From IMG/VR virus record IMGVR_UViG_3300046002_002560, positions 1 through 21,974 of that record: a stretch of 21,974 nucleotides of DNA, one strand, 5' to 3'. The stretch's first letter is position 1, and each line of letters starts with the position of its first letter. A model generated the notes under the pieces. It was not told the DNA's origin. It did not search any database and worked only from the letters and a program-made list of their open reading frames with translations. Of the stretch, positions 518 through 19,804 are shown piece by piece. The stretch comes from a virus. Position numbers and translations under genes: made by a program.

Positions 518-1324
518 ATGAGTTTATGGGGAAATAGAGATTCGTTCTCAATTACAGGTACAAGCGTTAGTGTAGTAAATGGTTCACCTACTGTTACTAG
601 CAATGGTGTTACAGGAACTACATTCTTAACAGACTTTCAAGAAGGTGATACAATTGTTATTGCCACAGTTAAGTATAAAATTTATAAAATAGTATCTGAT
701 ACTGTTATCACCTTAGTCGCTAATTATGCTGGGTCTACTGCTACTGTGGTAAATGCAAACCTTAAAGGCGCAGATATTCCTAAATATATCTTACAAGATG
801 ATTTACAATATATCTTCTTTGTATCTGAAGAGGAAGCAATGATTGTATCAAACCACAATAGAGGTATTAATGGCGCTGGTTGGTGGAAAATTTTAGAATA
901 TACCGACTCTGATGGTAATCCAAGACATAAAACTGAATTGTTAGTAGCAATGGATGTTCTTAACGCTGTTTCAAGTGATGCTGCGGACGATTTAACTGTT
1001 GCAGATGCATCAGCAATTATTTCTATATCAGTACAACCAGTTAACCGCTCAATTGCTTCTGGTGCTAATACTACATTCCCTGTAACTGCTTCTGTTACTG
1101 GTGGCGGTGCTGTTACTTATCAATGGCAAAAAGCTGTTGCTGGGTCTAACAAGTTTACTAACTTAACTAATGCTGGCATTTACTCTACTGTTACTACAGC
1201 AACTCTAAATCTTACTGCAGCAGTTGCTGGCAATAATGGAGACAGATATAGAGTATTGTTAGGTTCTACTGTACAGGGTGCTCCTGCCGTCACATCTACT
1301 CCAGGTATATTAACTATCACATAA
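518..1324 (+). CDS. Virion structural protein with C-terminal Ig-like domain
   Basis: 268 residues, ATG preceded by AAAAGGAAA. The N-terminal part (about 1-165, starting MSLWGNRDSFSITGT) contains an SH3/beta-rich looking stretch and a conserved-looking segment around GAGWWKILEYTDSDGNPRHKTE (read as two pieces: GAGWWKIL and DGNPRHKTE). The C-terminal part (about 172-268) has the hallmarks of an Ig-like fold: ISVQPVNRSIASG, then TYQWQKA, then GDRYRVLL, the W and Y spaced as the B and F strands of bacterial/phage Ig domains. Such domains decorate tailed-phage capsids and tails and are thought to bind carbohydrates on cells. Residue use is Thr/Ser/Val/Ala-rich with almost no cysteine, typical of virion surface proteins. 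Exact virion location is not shown by the sequence. Confidence 0.75.
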   Translation: MSLWGNRDSFSITGTSVSVVNGSPTVTSNGVTGTTFLTDFQEGDTIVIATVKYKIYKIVSDTVITLVANYAGSTATVVNANLKGADIPKYILQDDLQYIFFVSEEEAMIVSNHNRGINGAGWWKILEYTDSDGNPRHKTELLVAMDVLNAVSSDAADDLTVADASAIISISVQPVNRSIASGANTTFPVTASVTGGGAVTYQWQKAVAGSNKFTNLTNAGIYSTVTTATLNLTAAVAGNNGDRYRVLLGSTVQGAPAVTSTPGILTIT

Positions 1325-9700: not shown

Positions 9701-10191
9701 ATAAGAAAGAATTTTTCTATGGCAATTGGATTTCTGGTAATATATTTCCATACACATTATCTGAAGAAGAAAAACAAGAAGAGGAAGAAATGTCTACTAC
9801 AAAAAGATGTCCTAGTTGTAAATACATAAAGACAATAAGTAAGTTTTCTCTAAAAAAAGAAAATTGTGATAAATGTTTTCGTAACCCAAAACCTAATTCT
9901 AATAAAGAACAGGAAGAAGAATATTTTATTAGTAGGTGGGAAAATGCAGGAAAAACTACTCCTACATTTTATGATAAACTATCTGATTCTTTATGGCAGT
10001 CAGAACTACAAGAAAGATGTGAAAATGGTGAAATGACTATGGGTACTAATTGGTCTATTGGTAAAAAAACTTCATATAAAGGTTCTATTCAACAATACGG
10101 ACTAACAGGTATATTTAAAGATTCTGATGGAATTCCTATTAAAGGTAAAATAGATTTAGATGAAATTTTTAAAGATTTTCCTATAAAATAA
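9697..10191 (+). CDS. Inserted gene: zinc-binding protein of unknown function
   Basis: 164 residues from the ATG at 9697; a GTG at 9688 would add three residues but lies in the hydrolase remnant. An acidic stretch (EEEKQEEEEM, about 24-33) is followed by a four-cysteine unit, CPSC (39-42) and CDKC (about 57-60), with the KxIxxFSLKK spacing typical of small zinc ribbons at the N-termini of some phage HNH and endonuclease VII-like proteins. No HNH or nuclease residues follow; the C-terminal half (TMGTNWSIGKKTSYKGS, GIFKDSDGIPIKGK) is unfamiliar. The gene lies between two copies of a 92-bp repeat and next to a foreign gene tail, so it was probably brought in by recombination. Function unknown. 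Confidence 0.7.
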   Translation: MNKKEFFYGNWISGNIFPYTLSEEEKQEEEEMSTTKRCPSCKYIKTISKFSLKKENCDKCFRNPKPNSNKEQEEEYFISRWENAGKTTPTFYDKLSDSLWQSELQERCENGEMTMGTNWSIGKKTSYKGSIQQYGLTGIFKDSDGIPIKGKIDLDEIFKDFPIK

Positions 10192-10194
10192 TTC

Positions 10195-10223
10195 TTTACT
10201 TTTGAATTTAGATAGATTATAAT
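10195..10223 (+). promoter_or_regulatory. Sigma70-like promoter
   Basis: TTTACT, 17 bases, TATAAT. Its spacer (TTTGAATTTAGATAGAT) is close to that of the promoter at 10772, suggesting the two promoters are duplicates of one another. Confidence 0.75.
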
Positions 10224-11260: not shown

Positions 11261-11443
11261 ATGTTTAAATATGGTGTTTATAGTTATGGTGGGGCAATTG
11301 GTACTTCAGGTACTACTATGGTAAAATCTTTCGATAATAAAGAAGATGCTAAGAAATGTGCTAAAGGTTATAATTCTGCTTTAAGTGTGGGTGAAAAGAA
11401 ATATTATGGCATGAAATATAATGTTAGAATTTTTAGGGTTTAG
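11261..11443 (+). CDS. Small phage protein of unknown function
   Basis: 60 residues; ATG preceded by GAGGAATATATT. Glycine- and tyrosine-rich (MFKYGVYSYGGAIGTSG) with a basic, lysine-rich middle (NKEDAKKCAKGY) and a short beta-like end (YNVRIFRV). No domain recognised. It sits 10 bases after the previous gene and shares its promoter at 10772. Confidence 0.6.
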   Translation: MFKYGVYSYGGAIGTSGTTMVKSFDNKEDAKKCAKGYNSALSVGEKKYYGMKYNVRIFRV

Positions 11444-11453
11444 AAAATAAGTG

Positions 11454-11482
11454 TTGACATAGATTAAAAAATATATTATAAT
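11454..11482 (+). promoter_or_regulatory. Strong sigma70-like promoter for the helicase gene
   Basis: TTGACA, 17 bases, TATAAT, both exact consensus; TTATAAATT follows at 11486-11494. Confidence 0.85.
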
Positions 11483-11520
11483 AACTTATAAATTAAATTA
11501 TTGAGACAAGTGAGAGAAAA

Positions 11521-15270: not shown

Positions 15271-15299
15271 TTGACATGTTTGTTTATTCGTTGTATAAT
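15271..15299 (+). promoter_or_regulatory. Strong sigma70-like promoter
   Basis: TTGACA, 17 bases, TATAAT, both exact consensus, beginning 2 bases after the dsbA stop; TTATAAATT follows at 15303-15311. Confidence 0.85.
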
Positions 15300-15326
15300 T
15301 ACTTATAAATTCAAATTGGAAATATA

Positions 15327-17898: not shown

Positions 17899-18165
17899 AT
17901 GGGATTTAAACCAATAAGAAAAAATGTACTGATTGCTCAGATTAAAAGAAAGACAACTACTGAATCAGGTATCATTATTGAAGGTGTTAAAAGTGTCGCT
18001 GATACTGAAACAGCAAGAGTGTTGGGTATTGGTGATGAAGTCACTATGGTTCAAGTGGGCGATGAATTATTGGTAGATTGGAGTAAAACAGGTGTTATTA
18101 CCCTAGATGGGGAACAACGGTGTGTGATAGACGAAAGTAATATTATTGCTGTACTAGATAGATAG
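17899..18165 (+). CDS. 31: GroES/gp31-like co-chaperonin
   Basis: 88 residues, the size of a Cpn10 subunit. FKPIRKNVLIAQIKRKTTTESGIIIE at residues 3-28 follows the GroES N-terminal strand and mobile-loop start (xRPLxDRVLVxxxxxxxxxxGGIxLP), followed by ARVLGIGDE, VQVGDELLVDW and a final YxxIDESNIIAVL-like end (VIDESNIIAVL). T4 gp31 replaces GroES so that GroEL can fold the large capsid protein; the same role is likely here. The mobile loop is shorter than that of T4 gp31. The gene has its own promoter, and a structured RNA element begins about 15 bases after its stop. Confidence 0.88.
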   Translation: MGFKPIRKNVLIAQIKRKTTTESGIIIEGVKSVADTETARVLGIGDEVTMVQVGDELLVDWSKTGVITLDGEQRCVIDESNIIAVLDR

Positions 18166-18179
18166 AAAAGAAAACACCT

Positions 18180-18243
18180 CAAATGTCGGGAGATACAATT
18201 TGAATAACGGTGCAGTAAAAGTCTGTGATATCTCCCCCTAATT
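18180..18243 (+). ncRNA. Candidate structured RNA element, unit 1
   Basis: Hairpin CAAAT/ATTTG (18180-18184, 18198-18202); its loop holds GGGAGATA (18188-18195), which pairs perfectly with TATCTCCC (18229-18236), making a pseudoknot. Between them AACGGTG leads a second hairpin CAG-TAAAAGT-CTG (18213-18225). The unit ends CCTAATT, as do units 2 and 3. It lies just after the co-chaperonin gene, so it would be the 3' end of that mRNA. Family unknown to me. Confidence 0.55.
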
Positions 18244-18258
18244 ATTATAAAATAAGTC

Positions 18259-18287
18259 TTTACTTTTTGAAATAGTCGTAGTATAAT
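18259..18287 (+). promoter_or_regulatory. Sigma70-like promoter for RNA elements and tRNAs
   Basis: TTTACT, 17 bases, TATAAT, then AAC and TTATAAATT. Placed to start a transcript carrying RNA units 2 and 3, tRNA-Pro, tRNA-Thr and the tRNA-like element. Confidence 0.75.
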
Positions 18288-18300
18288 AACTTATAAATTA

Positions 18301-18403
18301 AAGAATTAATCGTTTGTGAAGTTTTTAAACGAAAGTAAAACACTACAGTCTGGCATGGGACTGATAACTGGTGGGGTAAGAGTCCCTAAATATGTCCCTA
18401 ATT
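18301..18403 (+). ncRNA. Candidate structured RNA element, unit 2
   Basis: Begins AAGAATTAATCG. Hairpin CGTTT/AAACG (18311-18331) is followed by AAAGTAA, hairpin CAGTC/GACTG (18346-18363) with loop GGCAT that can pair with ATG-CC at 18392-18397 across one bulge, then AACTGGTG and hairpin GGG-TAAGAGT-CCC (18374-18386), ending CCTAATT. Same order as units 1 and 3 with changed stem bases. The 20-mer GGTGGGGTAAGAGTCCCTAA is shared exactly with unit 3. Confidence 0.6.
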
Positions 18404-18406
18404 AAA

Positions 18407-18511
18407 AAGAATTAATCGGAGTAATTTACCGAAAAGTAAGCACTGCCAATAGTAGAAGGCGAATCTACTGGAACAACGGTGGGGTAAGAGTCCCTAATTA
18501 CGCACCTAATT
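18407..18511 (+). ncRNA. Candidate structured RNA element, unit 3
   Basis: Begins AAGAATTAATCG, 106 bases after the same start in unit 2. Hairpin CGG...CCG, then AAAAGTAA, hairpin AGTAG/CTACT (18451-18469) with loop GGCG that could pair weakly with CG and CC at 18501-18506, AACGGTG, hairpin GGG-TAAGAGT-CCC (18482-18494), ending CCTAATT two bases before tRNA-Pro. Confidence 0.6.
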
Positions 18512-18513
18512 TT

Positions 18514-18590
18514 CGGAATGTAGCTCAGCTTGATAGAGCTGTGCGTTTGGGGCGCACAGGTCCAAGGTTTGAATCCTTGTATTCCGACCA
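18514..18590 (+). tRNA. tRNA-Pro (anticodon TGG)
   Basis: 77 bases with encoded CCA. Acceptor CGGAATG/TATTCCG, D-stem GCTC/GAGC, anticodon stem GTGCG/CGCAC with loop TTTGGGG (anticodon TGG at 18548-18550), T-arm CAAGG-TTTGAAT-CCTTG. All arms pair normally. It is followed by the AU-rich linker GTTTTATTAATAAT. Confidence 0.93.
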
Positions 18591-18604: not shown

Positions 18605-18679
18605 GCTCCCTAAGCATAAGTGGCGATGCAGTTGACTTGTAATCATCATAAATCGGTTCGATTCCGGTAGGGAGCTCCA
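18605..18679 (+). tRNA. tRNA-Thr (anticodon TGT)
   Basis: 75 bases with encoded CCA. Acceptor GCTCCCT/AGGGAGC, D-stem GCAT/ATGC, anticodon loop CTTGTAA (anticodon TGT at 18638-18640) on stem GTTGA/TCATC with one T-T mismatch, T-arm ATCGG-TTCGATT-CCGGT. Position 8 is A instead of the usual T, a small oddity. Confidence 0.87.
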
Positions 18680-18683
18680 AATT

Positions 18684-18746
18684 ATCGCCATCTTCTAATG
18701 GTAGGATCCTGTATAGGGAATGAGTGTTCGACTCACTCTGGCGATA
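18684..18746 (+). tRNA. Short tRNA-like element or tRNA pseudogene, identity not assignable
   Basis: 63 bases. Acceptor ATCGCCA/TGGCGAT is a perfect 7-bp stem and the T-arm GAGTG-TTCGACT-CACTC is perfect, with a D-like arm TTC-TAATGGTA-GGA. Only 15 bases remain for the anticodon arm and variable loop, about 7 too few; TCC-TGTATAG-GGA is the best stem, with G rather than T at position 33. No CCA is encoded. The stop codon of the minus-strand endonuclease lies in its T-arm. Confidence 0.55.
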
Positions 18747-19278
18747 ACTTCTTACCTGTACGGGAAGCAGTTCTTTTAGATATTGTTTCAGCAGATAGTT
18801 TCTTACCTGTATGAGAAGCAGACAGTTTTGCTTTATGTTCATCAGAAAAAGTTCTTCCTGTGTTAGAAGCAGACATTTTTGCTTTTGTTTCATCAGAATG
18901 GGGGTTTTGTTTTTTACCTGTATGAGAAGCAGACAGTTTTGCTTTATGTTCGGCAGATAGAGTTCCTCCTTTTAAAGAGCCACCGTTAATGCCATTTTCT
19001 GGTATTAGATTTGCCCACTCATTGGAATTTACAATATCCCAATGTTCAGATATTAATAATGCGACTTCAGTTATTGAAGTATCTATATATGGTTCTGATA
19101 ACCAGATAGTTTTAACAAATTGTTTGCCGTGTTTTTTGATATGGCGTTTCCAATGTTTACCTGAACCTAGATATTTGTATGGATTTGATTTTGTGGTCTT
19201 ACCAAAATATTTTAATCCAGTAACTGAATGCTTCTTAATGTAAAGGTAGGTTGGGATTAAGGGTGTATAAATATTCAT
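18733..19278 (-). CDS. GIY-YIG homing endonuclease with NUMOD3 repeats
   Basis: 181 residues on the opposite strand to every other gene. The N-terminus has the GIY-YIG pair as YLYIKKHSVTGLKYFGKT, then YLGSGKHWKRHIKKHG and a putative catalytic glutamate in TEVALLISEHWD. The C-terminal 75 residues hold four NUMOD3-type DNA-binding repeats (SAEHKAKLSASHTGKK and variants). The ATG at 19278 follows TAGGAG by 8 bases. The last codons (LSPE and stop) are the complement of the acceptor and T-arm of the tRNA-like element, so the gene ends inside it. Homing endonucleases spread by cutting alleles that lack them; tRNA-cluster insertion fits this. A late-type promoter lies upstream on its strand. Confidence 0.88.
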   Translation of the reverse strand: MNIYTPLIPTYLYIKKHSVTGLKYFGKTTKSNPYKYLGSGKHWKRHIKKHGKQFVKTIWLSEPYIDTSITEVALLISEHWDIVNSNEWANLIPENGINGGSLKGGTLSAEHKAKLSASHTGKKQNPHSDETKAKMSASNTGRTFSDEHKAKLSASHTGKKLSAETISKRTASRTGKKLSPE

Positions 19279-19394: not shown

Positions 19395-19442
19395 AATGCC
19401 GAAAGATGGGACAACTGCGTAGCGGAAGTCAAAGACGGCACT
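19395..19442 (+). ncRNA. RNA-array unit 0 (48-base structured hairpin)
   Basis: AATGCCG pairs with CGGCACT (one A-C mismatch). Inside, GAC-aa-CTGC-gta-GCGG-aa-GTC forms a long symmetrical hairpin. It is separated from the next unit by TTATAAAG. Confidence 0.45.
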
Positions 19443-19450
19443 TTATAAAG

Positions 19451-19533
19451 CACATTCATTGGCTATCAGACAATACTGGTATAATCCCTTGTAACATATT
19501 TGAGATATATGGGGAGGTCATTCTCGGAGTGTG
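19451..19533 (+). ncRNA. RNA-array unit 1 (83 bases, tRNA-like features)
   Basis: Closed by the 7-bp stem CACATTC/GAGTGTG (one G-U). Contains CATAT-TTGAGAT-ATATG (19495-19511), a 5-bp stem with 7-base loop and T at the position of U33, like an anticodon arm (GAG). The T-arm position has only a 3-bp stem, and the D region is far too long for a normal tRNA. Confidence 0.4.
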
Positions 19534-19543
19534 CTTTATAAAA

Positions 19544-19634
19544 CACATTCGCCCTTGATCAGGTTCAGCTGGATTGCTGAGTAAGTGCTGGTATGTACTA
19601 TGCTTAACACGGTTCAATTCCGTGACAGAGTGTG
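19544..19634 (+). ncRNA. RNA-array unit 2 (91 bases, tRNA-like features)
   Basis: Closed by CACATTC/GAGTGTG, as in the previous unit. Contains hairpin TCAGC/GCTGA (19565-19580), resembling a D-arm, and a perfect T-arm CACGG-TTCAATT-CCGTG (19608-19624). Three bases (ACA) lie between T-arm and closing stem, where a real tRNA has none, so it is a degenerate tRNA or another structured RNA. Confidence 0.45.
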
Positions 19635-19644
19635 TTTTATTAAA

Positions 19645-19716
19645 CATATTAGTCGGGTTTATATAAATTCGCTTACTCGTTAAGAATAGAGGCGACTAAA
19701 ACTATTCTATAGTATG
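19645..19716 (+). ncRNA. RNA-array unit 3 (72 bases)
   Basis: Possible closing stem CATATTA/TAGTATG (one G-U), a changed version of the CACATTC/GAGTGTG stem. It competes with a perfect TTAGTCG/CGACTAA stem (19649-19655, 19693-19699) and a small ACTAT-TCT-ATAGT hairpin, so the fold is uncertain. The linker TTTTATTAAATATT leads to tRNA-Gly. Confidence 0.35.
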
Positions 19717-19730
19717 TTTTATTAAATATT

Positions 19731-19804
19731 GCGGGATTAGTTTAATGGTAAAACTGGAGTTTTCCAAACTTCTGTCATCGGTTCGATTCCGTTATCCCGC
19801 TCCA
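19731..19804 (+). tRNA. tRNA-Gly (anticodon TCC)
   Basis: 74 bases with encoded CCA. Acceptor GCGGGAT/ATCCCGC, D-stem GTTT/AAAC, anticodon stem GGAGT/ACTTC with loop TTTCCAA (anticodon TCC at 19763-19765), T-arm ATCGG-TTCGATT-CCGTT with one mismatch. Confidence 0.9.

Follow-up and report, generated by a model that had tools for sequence, protein, structure and literature searches.

Three related units precede a phage tRNA array

The window, the whole stretch of DNA that was analysed (21,974 nt; positions 1-21,974 of the IMG/VR record IMGVR_UViG_3300046002_002560), is a piece of a tailed-phage genome that encodes a DNA primase, a ribonucleotide reductase, an ATP-dependent DNA ligase, an exonuclease and a GroES-like protein. 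ARAGORN identified a small tRNA array (Pro, Thr and Gly). Between the GroES-like gene and tRNA-Pro lie three related units, all on the + strand (Table 1), the first of which follows the stop codon of the GroES-like gene while the third ends 2 nt before the tRNA. Their parts occur in the order P0 (an upstream hairpin in units 2 and 3; unit 1 lacks a clear one), A-rich linker, P1, P2, P1', P3, short linker, pseudoknot strand and TAATT. A first-pass annotation had proposed three related RNA elements before the tRNAs, and a reading of the sequence located every stem that it named: the changing 5-bp hairpins (P2), the TAAAAGT and TAAGAGT loops on CAG/CTG and GGG/CCC stems (P3), the upstream hairpins CGTTT/AAACG and CGG/CCG of units 2 and 3, the common ends CCTAATT, the pseudoknot of unit 1 and the weaker ones of units 2 and 3. 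Absent from that annotation was P1, a 4-bp stem (CACY/GGTG) around the variable hairpin, present in each of the three units.

Table 1. Features of the unit region and tRNA array of the window.
Feature	Position	Strand	Details
GroES-like co-chaperonin gene	17899-18165	+	Upstream of unit 1; phrog_3188, E 5.6e-13
Unit 1	18163-18243 (core)	+	Model R1 match, 85.3 bits
Unit 1 P1	18175-18178 / 18209-18212	+	CACC / GGTG
Unit 1 P2	18180-18184 / 18198-18202	+	CAAAT / ATTTG
Unit 1 P3	18213-18215 / 18223-18225	+	CAG / CTG; loop TAAAAGT, 18216-18222
Unit 1 pseudoknot	18188-18195 / 18229-18236	+	GGGAGATA / TATCTCCC
Putative sigma70-type promoter	18259-18287	+	TTTACT-17-TATAAT; between units 1 and 2; inferred
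Unit 2	18310-18403 (core 18329-18403)	+	R1 match, 78.7 bits
Unit 2 P0	18310-18315 / 18327-18332	+	TCGTTT / AAACGA
Unit 2 P1	18341-18344 / 18370-18373	+	CACT / GGTG
Unit 2 P2	18346-18350 / 18359-18363	+	CAGTC / GACTG
Unit 2 P3	18374-18376 / 18384-18386	+	GGG / CCC; loop TAAGAGT
Unit 2 pseudoknot	18352-18356 / 18392-18396	+	GGCAT / ATGTC; one G-U
Unit 3	18417-18511 (core 18429-18511)	+	R1 match, 81.9 bits
Unit 3 P0	18417-18419 / 18429-18431	+	CGG / CCG
Unit 3 P1	18441-18444 / 18478-18481	+	CACT / GGTG
Unit 3 P2	18451-18455 / 18465-18469	+	AGTAG / CTACT; plus CC 18446-18447 / GG 18470-18471
Unit 3 P3	18482-18484 / 18492-18494	+	GGG / CCC; loop TAAGAGT
Unit 3 pseudoknot (weak)	18459-18461 / 18501-18503	+	GCG / CGC; certain part only
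tRNA-Pro(TGG)	18514-18590	+	Directly 3' of unit 3
tRNA-Thr(TGT)	18605-18679	+	Next in array after tRNA-Pro
tRNA-Gly(TCC)	19731-19804	+	Final array tRNA called in the window

The promoter-like site between units 1 and 2, a probable promoter inferred from its sequence, would give a single transcript that contains the tRNAs together with units 2 and 3. The count of promoter-like sites in the region is not above that in shuffled sequence, and no + strand terminator was seen in the unit region. The AT-rich segment of this type (TTTACT-17-TATAAT) recurs at 18245-18302, 11440-11497, 15285-15314 and 10182-10203 with 78-95% similarity, and may represent a promoter class of the window phage itself.

Several other features of the array were observed. 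A tRNA-like stretch at 18685-18747 (cgccatcttctaatggtaggatcctgtatagggaatgagtgttcgactcactctggcga), missed by ARAGORN, is possibly an unusual or broken tRNA; it lies directly before a homing endonuclease gene (18733-19278, - strand, opposite to the tRNAs) whose C-terminal end contains a four-copy repeat. Genes of this kind are also found within tRNA clusters in T4 (segB) and in phages that carry the units. Three tandem stretches of ∼80-100 nt each at 19437-19725, not called as tRNAs, are bounded by long inverted repeats (AAAGCACATTC..GAGTGTGCTTT, AAAACACATTC..GAGTGTGTTTT and AAACATATTAG..TAGTATGTTTT), and one of them contains a tRNA-like T-arm, CACGGTTCAATTCCGTG. Similar stretches come after RNA units at loci L010 and L037, and a further inverted-repeat-bounded stretch is found at ∼770-900 (- strand) of L523; those of the window may represent unusual tRNAs or a further RNA family. 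GroES-like genes are located in or beside tRNA arrays of unrelated phages, as in the window, at 3579-4081 of L567 (Burkholderia phage BcepSaruman) and 9914-10340 of L504 (Stenotrophomonas phage DLP_6), which may be coincidence.

The units belong to an uncatalogued family of phage RNAs

The search for homologues started from a DNA pattern based on the conserved core, which identified relatives in viral contigs at one to four copies each. An alignment of 16 units was used to build covariance model R1, and searches with R1 gave additional, more distant units. In BLAST searches window unit 3 displayed a weak match to unannotated DNA between tRNA genes of the Pseudomonas putida phage PpuM-Amme-3 (vB_PpuM-Amme-3), which R1 also matched; the element is located near 90133-90214 of that record. 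With the PpuM-Amme-3 unit and its relative in phage UAVern as BLAST queries, a group of Pseudomonas phages of 92-102 kb was reached (ventosus, Bitten, vB_PF_Y1-MI, phiK7A1, Boevelstad, PseuGesM_254 and PPSC2), all of which contain the element between tRNA genes, where it is mostly unannotated. In PPSC2, a phage of P. fluorescens, it is located at 92564-92645. BLAST with the units of L423 and L147 gave no relatives among isolated phages. A descriptor search requiring all parts of the fold returned 30 matches at a score of at least 45, compared with 0.7 in shuffled sequence, although the loci had partly been picked by the core pattern. About 40 units of the family were recovered here, some in phage contigs from metagenomes and others in Pseudomonas phage isolates (Otagovirus-type phages and the P. 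putida PpuM phages). The window units are members of a previously uncatalogued family of folded RNAs of phage tRNA arrays, ∼75-105 bases in length. The first-pass annotation had proposed a covariance model and a homologue search as the means of checking its claim; many homologues with compensatory changes were indeed recovered, and the existence of a conserved structured RNA family is, in our judgement, virtually certain.

More diverged units were also observed, with as many as three in one array; in some of them the pseudoknot is bulged and the P3 loop altered (for example, TAAGAAC). These are located on the - strand of L390 (1647-1727, plus another stretch upstream of tRNA-Trp) and on the - strand of L461 (8566-8647, 8771-8871 and 9089-9168).

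A second covariance model, R2, was run over the whole records of member phages, in which its matches were confined to the tRNA regions, with the exception of L081. This locus displays a weak pseudoknot and no tRNA within ∼10 kb on either side, and is retained as doubtful. No member was detected by R2 in T4, KVP40, PaP1, Felix O1, My1, DLP_6, S-CRM01 or phiCbK, nor in Aeromonas 65, Boopy, mar003J3, BUCT-ZZ01, VpaJT_1, BcepSaruman or V13, many of which carry tRNA arrays; as strict filters were used, weak members in these 15 control phages could have been missed. Two of these phages had been candidates on other grounds: the BLAST match in BcepSaruman consists of a tRNA only, and that in Ruegeria phage V13 comprises 27 bases within a coding gene and is not matched by the model. 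Loci that fitted the DNA pattern but lack nearby tRNAs, including 29 bacterial genome contigs, were judged in context to be chance. In such pattern-picked, tRNA-less loci R2 scores below ∼35 were not trusted, since selection alone gives up to 33 bits. The restriction of R2 matches to tRNA regions, their absence from the control phages and the chance nature of the bacterial matches show that this is a phage family tied to tRNA arrays and far from universal. In a subset of large phages it is widespread, and it has no entry in the databases searched. Among Rfam 15 models (including riboswitches, ribozymes, RNase P, T-box, tmRNA, GOLLD and ROOL) only tRNAs reached the gathering threshold in the window, L496 and L390; the best non-tRNA match over units was RAGATH-30, at 20 bits against a threshold of 59.5. 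This agrees with the earlier view that the units resemble no known RNA family, and no description of the family was found in the open-access literature.

A conserved fold that includes a covarying pseudoknot

The common fold consists of the upstream hairpin P0, an A-rich linker, the 4-bp P1 around the variable hairpin P2 and, directly after P1, the 3-bp hairpin P3 with the loop U-A-N-R-A-G-U. The loop of P2 pairs with a strand located 3' of P3, creating a pseudoknot. In the 16-unit set 91.8% of cells are paired compared with 77.2% in shuffles, the covariation score is 0.458 (0.189 in shuffles) and two-sided changes number 34 (12.2 in shuffles). Across 26 diverse units P1 and P3 are paired in 99.5% of cells, with a covariation score of 0.636 versus 0.181 in shuffles, and pairing falls to 36-53% when the partner strand is slid by 1-3 columns. 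In the wide set P1 occurs as CACC/GGTG, CACT/AGTG, CACG/CGTG, CACA/TGTG, CTGC/GCAG, CGGT/GCCG and CGCA/TGCG, and P3 as CAG/CTG, GGG/CCC, CGG/CCG, TAG/CTA and TGG/CCA.

As P2 and the pseudoknot vary in length, and MAFFT gave no structural alignment of P2 and its loop for distant classes, these two elements were tested by partner swapping rather than by column counts. The pseudoknot pairs are fully exchanged across phages (for example, GTTGCTTC/GAAGCAAC, TTCCAATA/TATTGGAA, ACGTTAA/TTAACGT and GTCAGCG/CGCTGAT). In the swap test on 21 classes, from which units chosen with knowledge of their pseudoknot were excluded (L081 was dropped from the second test), cognate strands gave a mean of 13.7 compared with 9.0 for non-cognate strands, and none of 200,000 permutations reached the observed sum. 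A looser version, in which the whole stretch between the P1 strands was admitted, was weaker (3 of 100,000 permutations). For P2 the equivalent figure was 0 of 100,000, in a set that includes some units chosen by a descriptor requiring P2. The P0 hairpin also exceeds expectation from shuffled sequence (0 of 300) and displays compensatory pairs, with CAGG/CCTG in L496 replaced by CGGG/CCCG in L497 and L502. The inference of the first-pass annotation, that stem changes which keep pairing reflect selection on RNA structure, is thus supported, since P1, P2, P3 and the pseudoknot all covary significantly. It should be noted that single-sequence folding energy is ordinary with respect to shuffles (z of -0.8 to +0.9), and the case therefore rests on comparison and not on stability. 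The retention of shape while the sequence changes indicates that the family almost certainly does something.

The pseudoknot is not equally evident in all members. It is weak in window unit 3, L510 has no good contiguous one and that of L154b, which looks like a chimera of two classes, is poor; L154b and L510 count against its universality. Members at L345, L398, L495-L500 and L510 contain an extra hairpin, P2b, between P2 and P1', and the core therefore tolerates a three-way-junction form. At L332 (3520-3660), where the unit is surrounded by a closing helix (AAGGCAA/TTGCCTT), the pseudoknot strand GTTGCTT has a second copy further upstream, within the P0 region. The tail GAAGCAAC could thus pair with one copy or the other, an alternative that is a possible switch.

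P3 resembles a T-loop

The P3 loop comprises 7 nt and is closed by a G-C pair in 26 of 26 units. Its variants, TAAAAGT, TAAGAGT, TACAAGT, TATAAGT and, in the second PpuM unit, TGAGAGT, all fit U-N-N-R-A followed by two bases. In alignment A2 the closing G-C and loop positions 1 (U), 2 (A), 5 (A), 6 (G) and 7 (U) do not vary, whereas position 3 varies most freely and a purine occupies position 4. Variation at other loop positions is seen in two more diverged units that are not part of this alignment. Loop variation is under-sampled except in members found by BLAST, as the patterns used to scan for distant homologues required part of the loop. In T-loops generally, position 3 is the unstacked residue (PMC4810234). 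P3 meets the sequence criterion for this motif, namely U-N-N-R-A with a Watson-Crick closing pair, a variable position 3 and a purine at position 4, and has the same G-C-closed pattern as the T-loops of the tRNA T-arm, RNase P (J11/12-J12/11), T-box Stem I and the ribosomal L1 stalk. The assignment of P3 as a T-loop has good sequence support but is not proven; an intercalating base from a partner strand and a U-A reverse-Hoogsteen pair would be expected by analogy. RNAs that bind the tRNA elbow contain two interdigitated T-loops, whereas only one is evident in the family units. The fold that surrounds known T-loops likewise differs from that of the units, which none of the corresponding Rfam models matches.

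Units are placed on the tRNA strand, often within a narrow range of distance from the next tRNA

All but one (L081) of the 32 listed units have tRNAs within 3 kb on the same strand and none on the opposite strand. The distance from the end of P3 to the next tRNA is 16-28 nt in 15 of the 32, no unit falls at 29-118 nt, and in the others, where a tRNA is present, it is at least 119 nt. Several units occupy precisely the space that separates two tRNAs. About half have no recognised tRNA directly downstream; in the window, for example, unit 1 is followed by the promoter-like site and unit 2 by unit 3. Many different tRNAs occur downstream (Pro, Thr, Tyr, Asn, Gly, Ser, Gln and Ile), and there is therefore no link to one amino acid. 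The regular spacing favours a tight relation to the next tRNA, but a strict need is made less likely by units that have no adjoining tRNA and by the many tRNAs that lack a unit. The first-pass annotation had suggested processing of the tRNA transcript, self-cleavage or gene control as possible roles. Placement in the arrays of unrelated phages fits an RNA gene of the array, or tRNA-linked processing, better than control of protein genes.

Possible roles of the units

In the absence of RNA data we lean, with moderate confidence, towards the view that the units are discrete noncoding RNA genes of large tailed phages, situated within tRNA arrays and excised during tRNA processing, whose products act in trans. 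Fold, compensatory evolution, location and copy number are matters of observation here, whereas transcription, processing, stability and function are inferred. The units would be transcribed within the tRNA precursor, in the window from the promoter-like site at 18259-18287; RNase P, in cleaving at the 5' end of the next tRNA, would also set the 3' terminus of the unit, whose 5' terminus would arise when the tRNA before it is processed at its 3' end. Pseudoknot and putative T-loop would confer a compact, nuclease-resistant structure on a stable RNA, which may accumulate in infected cells, as RNAC and RNAD of T4 do, and act in trans. Judged from the T-loop and the company of tRNAs, a plausible partner would be a protein or RNA that handles tRNA. 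More specifically, the RNA might target the tRNA machinery of the host, either by decoying or inhibiting a defence that cuts tRNA or an enzyme that processes it, or as a helper that clamps the tRNA elbow. This proposal is tentative and we regard it as doubtful; if true, the family would constitute a widespread class of small RNAs delivered together with phage tRNAs. Three observations count against units acting in trans as RNA genes: the many units that do not directly precede a recognised tRNA, the weak pseudoknots of window unit 3, L510 and L154b, and the strong divergence of P2 and the pseudoknot between copies within one phage, which any shared trans target must tolerate.

That units lie so close to a downstream tRNA is equally compatible with a role in cis. 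The strongest alternative, although we consider it unlikely, is that the fold is merely an insulator or processing signal, which helps the precursor to fold or presents the next tRNA and is then degraded. The very narrow spacing between P3 and the tRNA in 15 of the 32 units is consistent with such a leader, as is the variety of downstream tRNAs, which is expected of a generic one. The T-loop, moreover, is part of the motif by which RNase P and T-boxes bind the tRNA elbow, although there it occurs as an interdigitated pair. About half of the units, however, do not directly precede a detected tRNA, and in the window the promoter-like site separates unit 1 from the array. Most tRNAs of the same arrays lack the element, which is therefore not needed for their processing.

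A self-cleaving ribozyme, by which the precursor would be split into its tRNAs, would explain a compact pseudoknotted fold, a feature of several known small ribozymes, and the presence of conserved unpaired bases (the A-rich linker and the UANRAGU loop) near tRNA ends. Self-scission is purely inferred, and we think this reading quite improbable, though not excluded: no Rfam ribozyme family matches the units even at E 10, the T-loop and A-rich strand account for the conserved unpaired bases, and phage tRNAs need no ribozyme for their release. Still less probable is an RNA polymerase antitermination element, similar to put of HK022, that permits read-through of a long untranslated tRNA array. 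Units 2 and 3 do lie just after the promoter-like site and before the tRNAs; elements are, however, also scattered within arrays, several in each and far from any evident transcription start, and they end near tRNAs rather than start near promoters. The position of window unit 1 just downstream of the GroES-like gene might suggest a riboswitch or other control element for neighbouring protein genes, but this is highly improbable given that adjoining protein genes vary between phages while the tRNAs are constant, that one array contains several differing copies and that the window region displays no + strand terminator. Finally, that degenerate tRNA genes or tRNA-like pseudogenes mimic a new fold is barely credible: despite their location in tRNA arrays, their 7-nt T-loop-type loop and the tRNA-sized gaps that they fill, the units are not called by ARAGORN or the Rfam tRNA model, which call their neighbours, they lack an acceptor stem and anticodon arm, their topology is unlike that of tRNA (P3 follows P1 on the 5' side and the pseudoknot crosses P2), and decay would not leave 99.5% pairing.

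Comparison with known systems

ToxI-type antitoxins of type III toxin-antitoxin systems are small pseudoknotted RNAs, present in several copies, that function in phage-host conflict. In contrast to ToxI repeats, the family units are diverged and interleaved with tRNAs, and they have no Rfam match. PADLOC identified no toxin gene among the six window proteins that neighbour the units, and at other loci the units are flanked by tRNAs and varied genes. GOLLD and ROOL, which are far larger than the family units, resemble them in being structured RNAs of phages and prophages. The paper on GOLLD and ROOL (PMC12286853) also mentions tRNA arrays.

The combination of a probable T-loop with a covarying pseudoknot, outside Rfam, is of interest for RNA structural biology, and annotation pipelines at present leave the stretches occupied by the units blank. 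The reasons why phages carry many tRNA genes are still debated, and the two non-tRNA RNAs of the T4 cluster, RNAC and RNAD, which derive from the tRNA region and have been seen by Northern blot, have no known role (PMC9697503, PMC3014915). Here a conserved RNA family occupies a similar niche in many phages, including culturable ones of Pseudomonas putida, P. fluorescens, P. protegens and P. syringae, and its presence in these renders the question of function testable. Like the family units, RNAC and RNAD (species 1 and 2 stable RNAs; noncoding, ∼120-140 nt) are located in a tRNA cluster, beside tRNAs and on the tRNA strand. They are not members of the family: with filters off, the best R1 score in the T4 region was 7.7 bits, which is chance, and R2 found no match in the whole T4 genome. 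RNAC contains a tRNA-like T-arm sequence, and by eye neither RNA follows the plan of P1, P2, P3 and pseudoknot. RNAC and RNAD are thus the closest precedent in the niche, unrelated by model: the fold and the family described here are new, while the setting, that of extra RNAs within a phage tRNA cluster, is known from T4.
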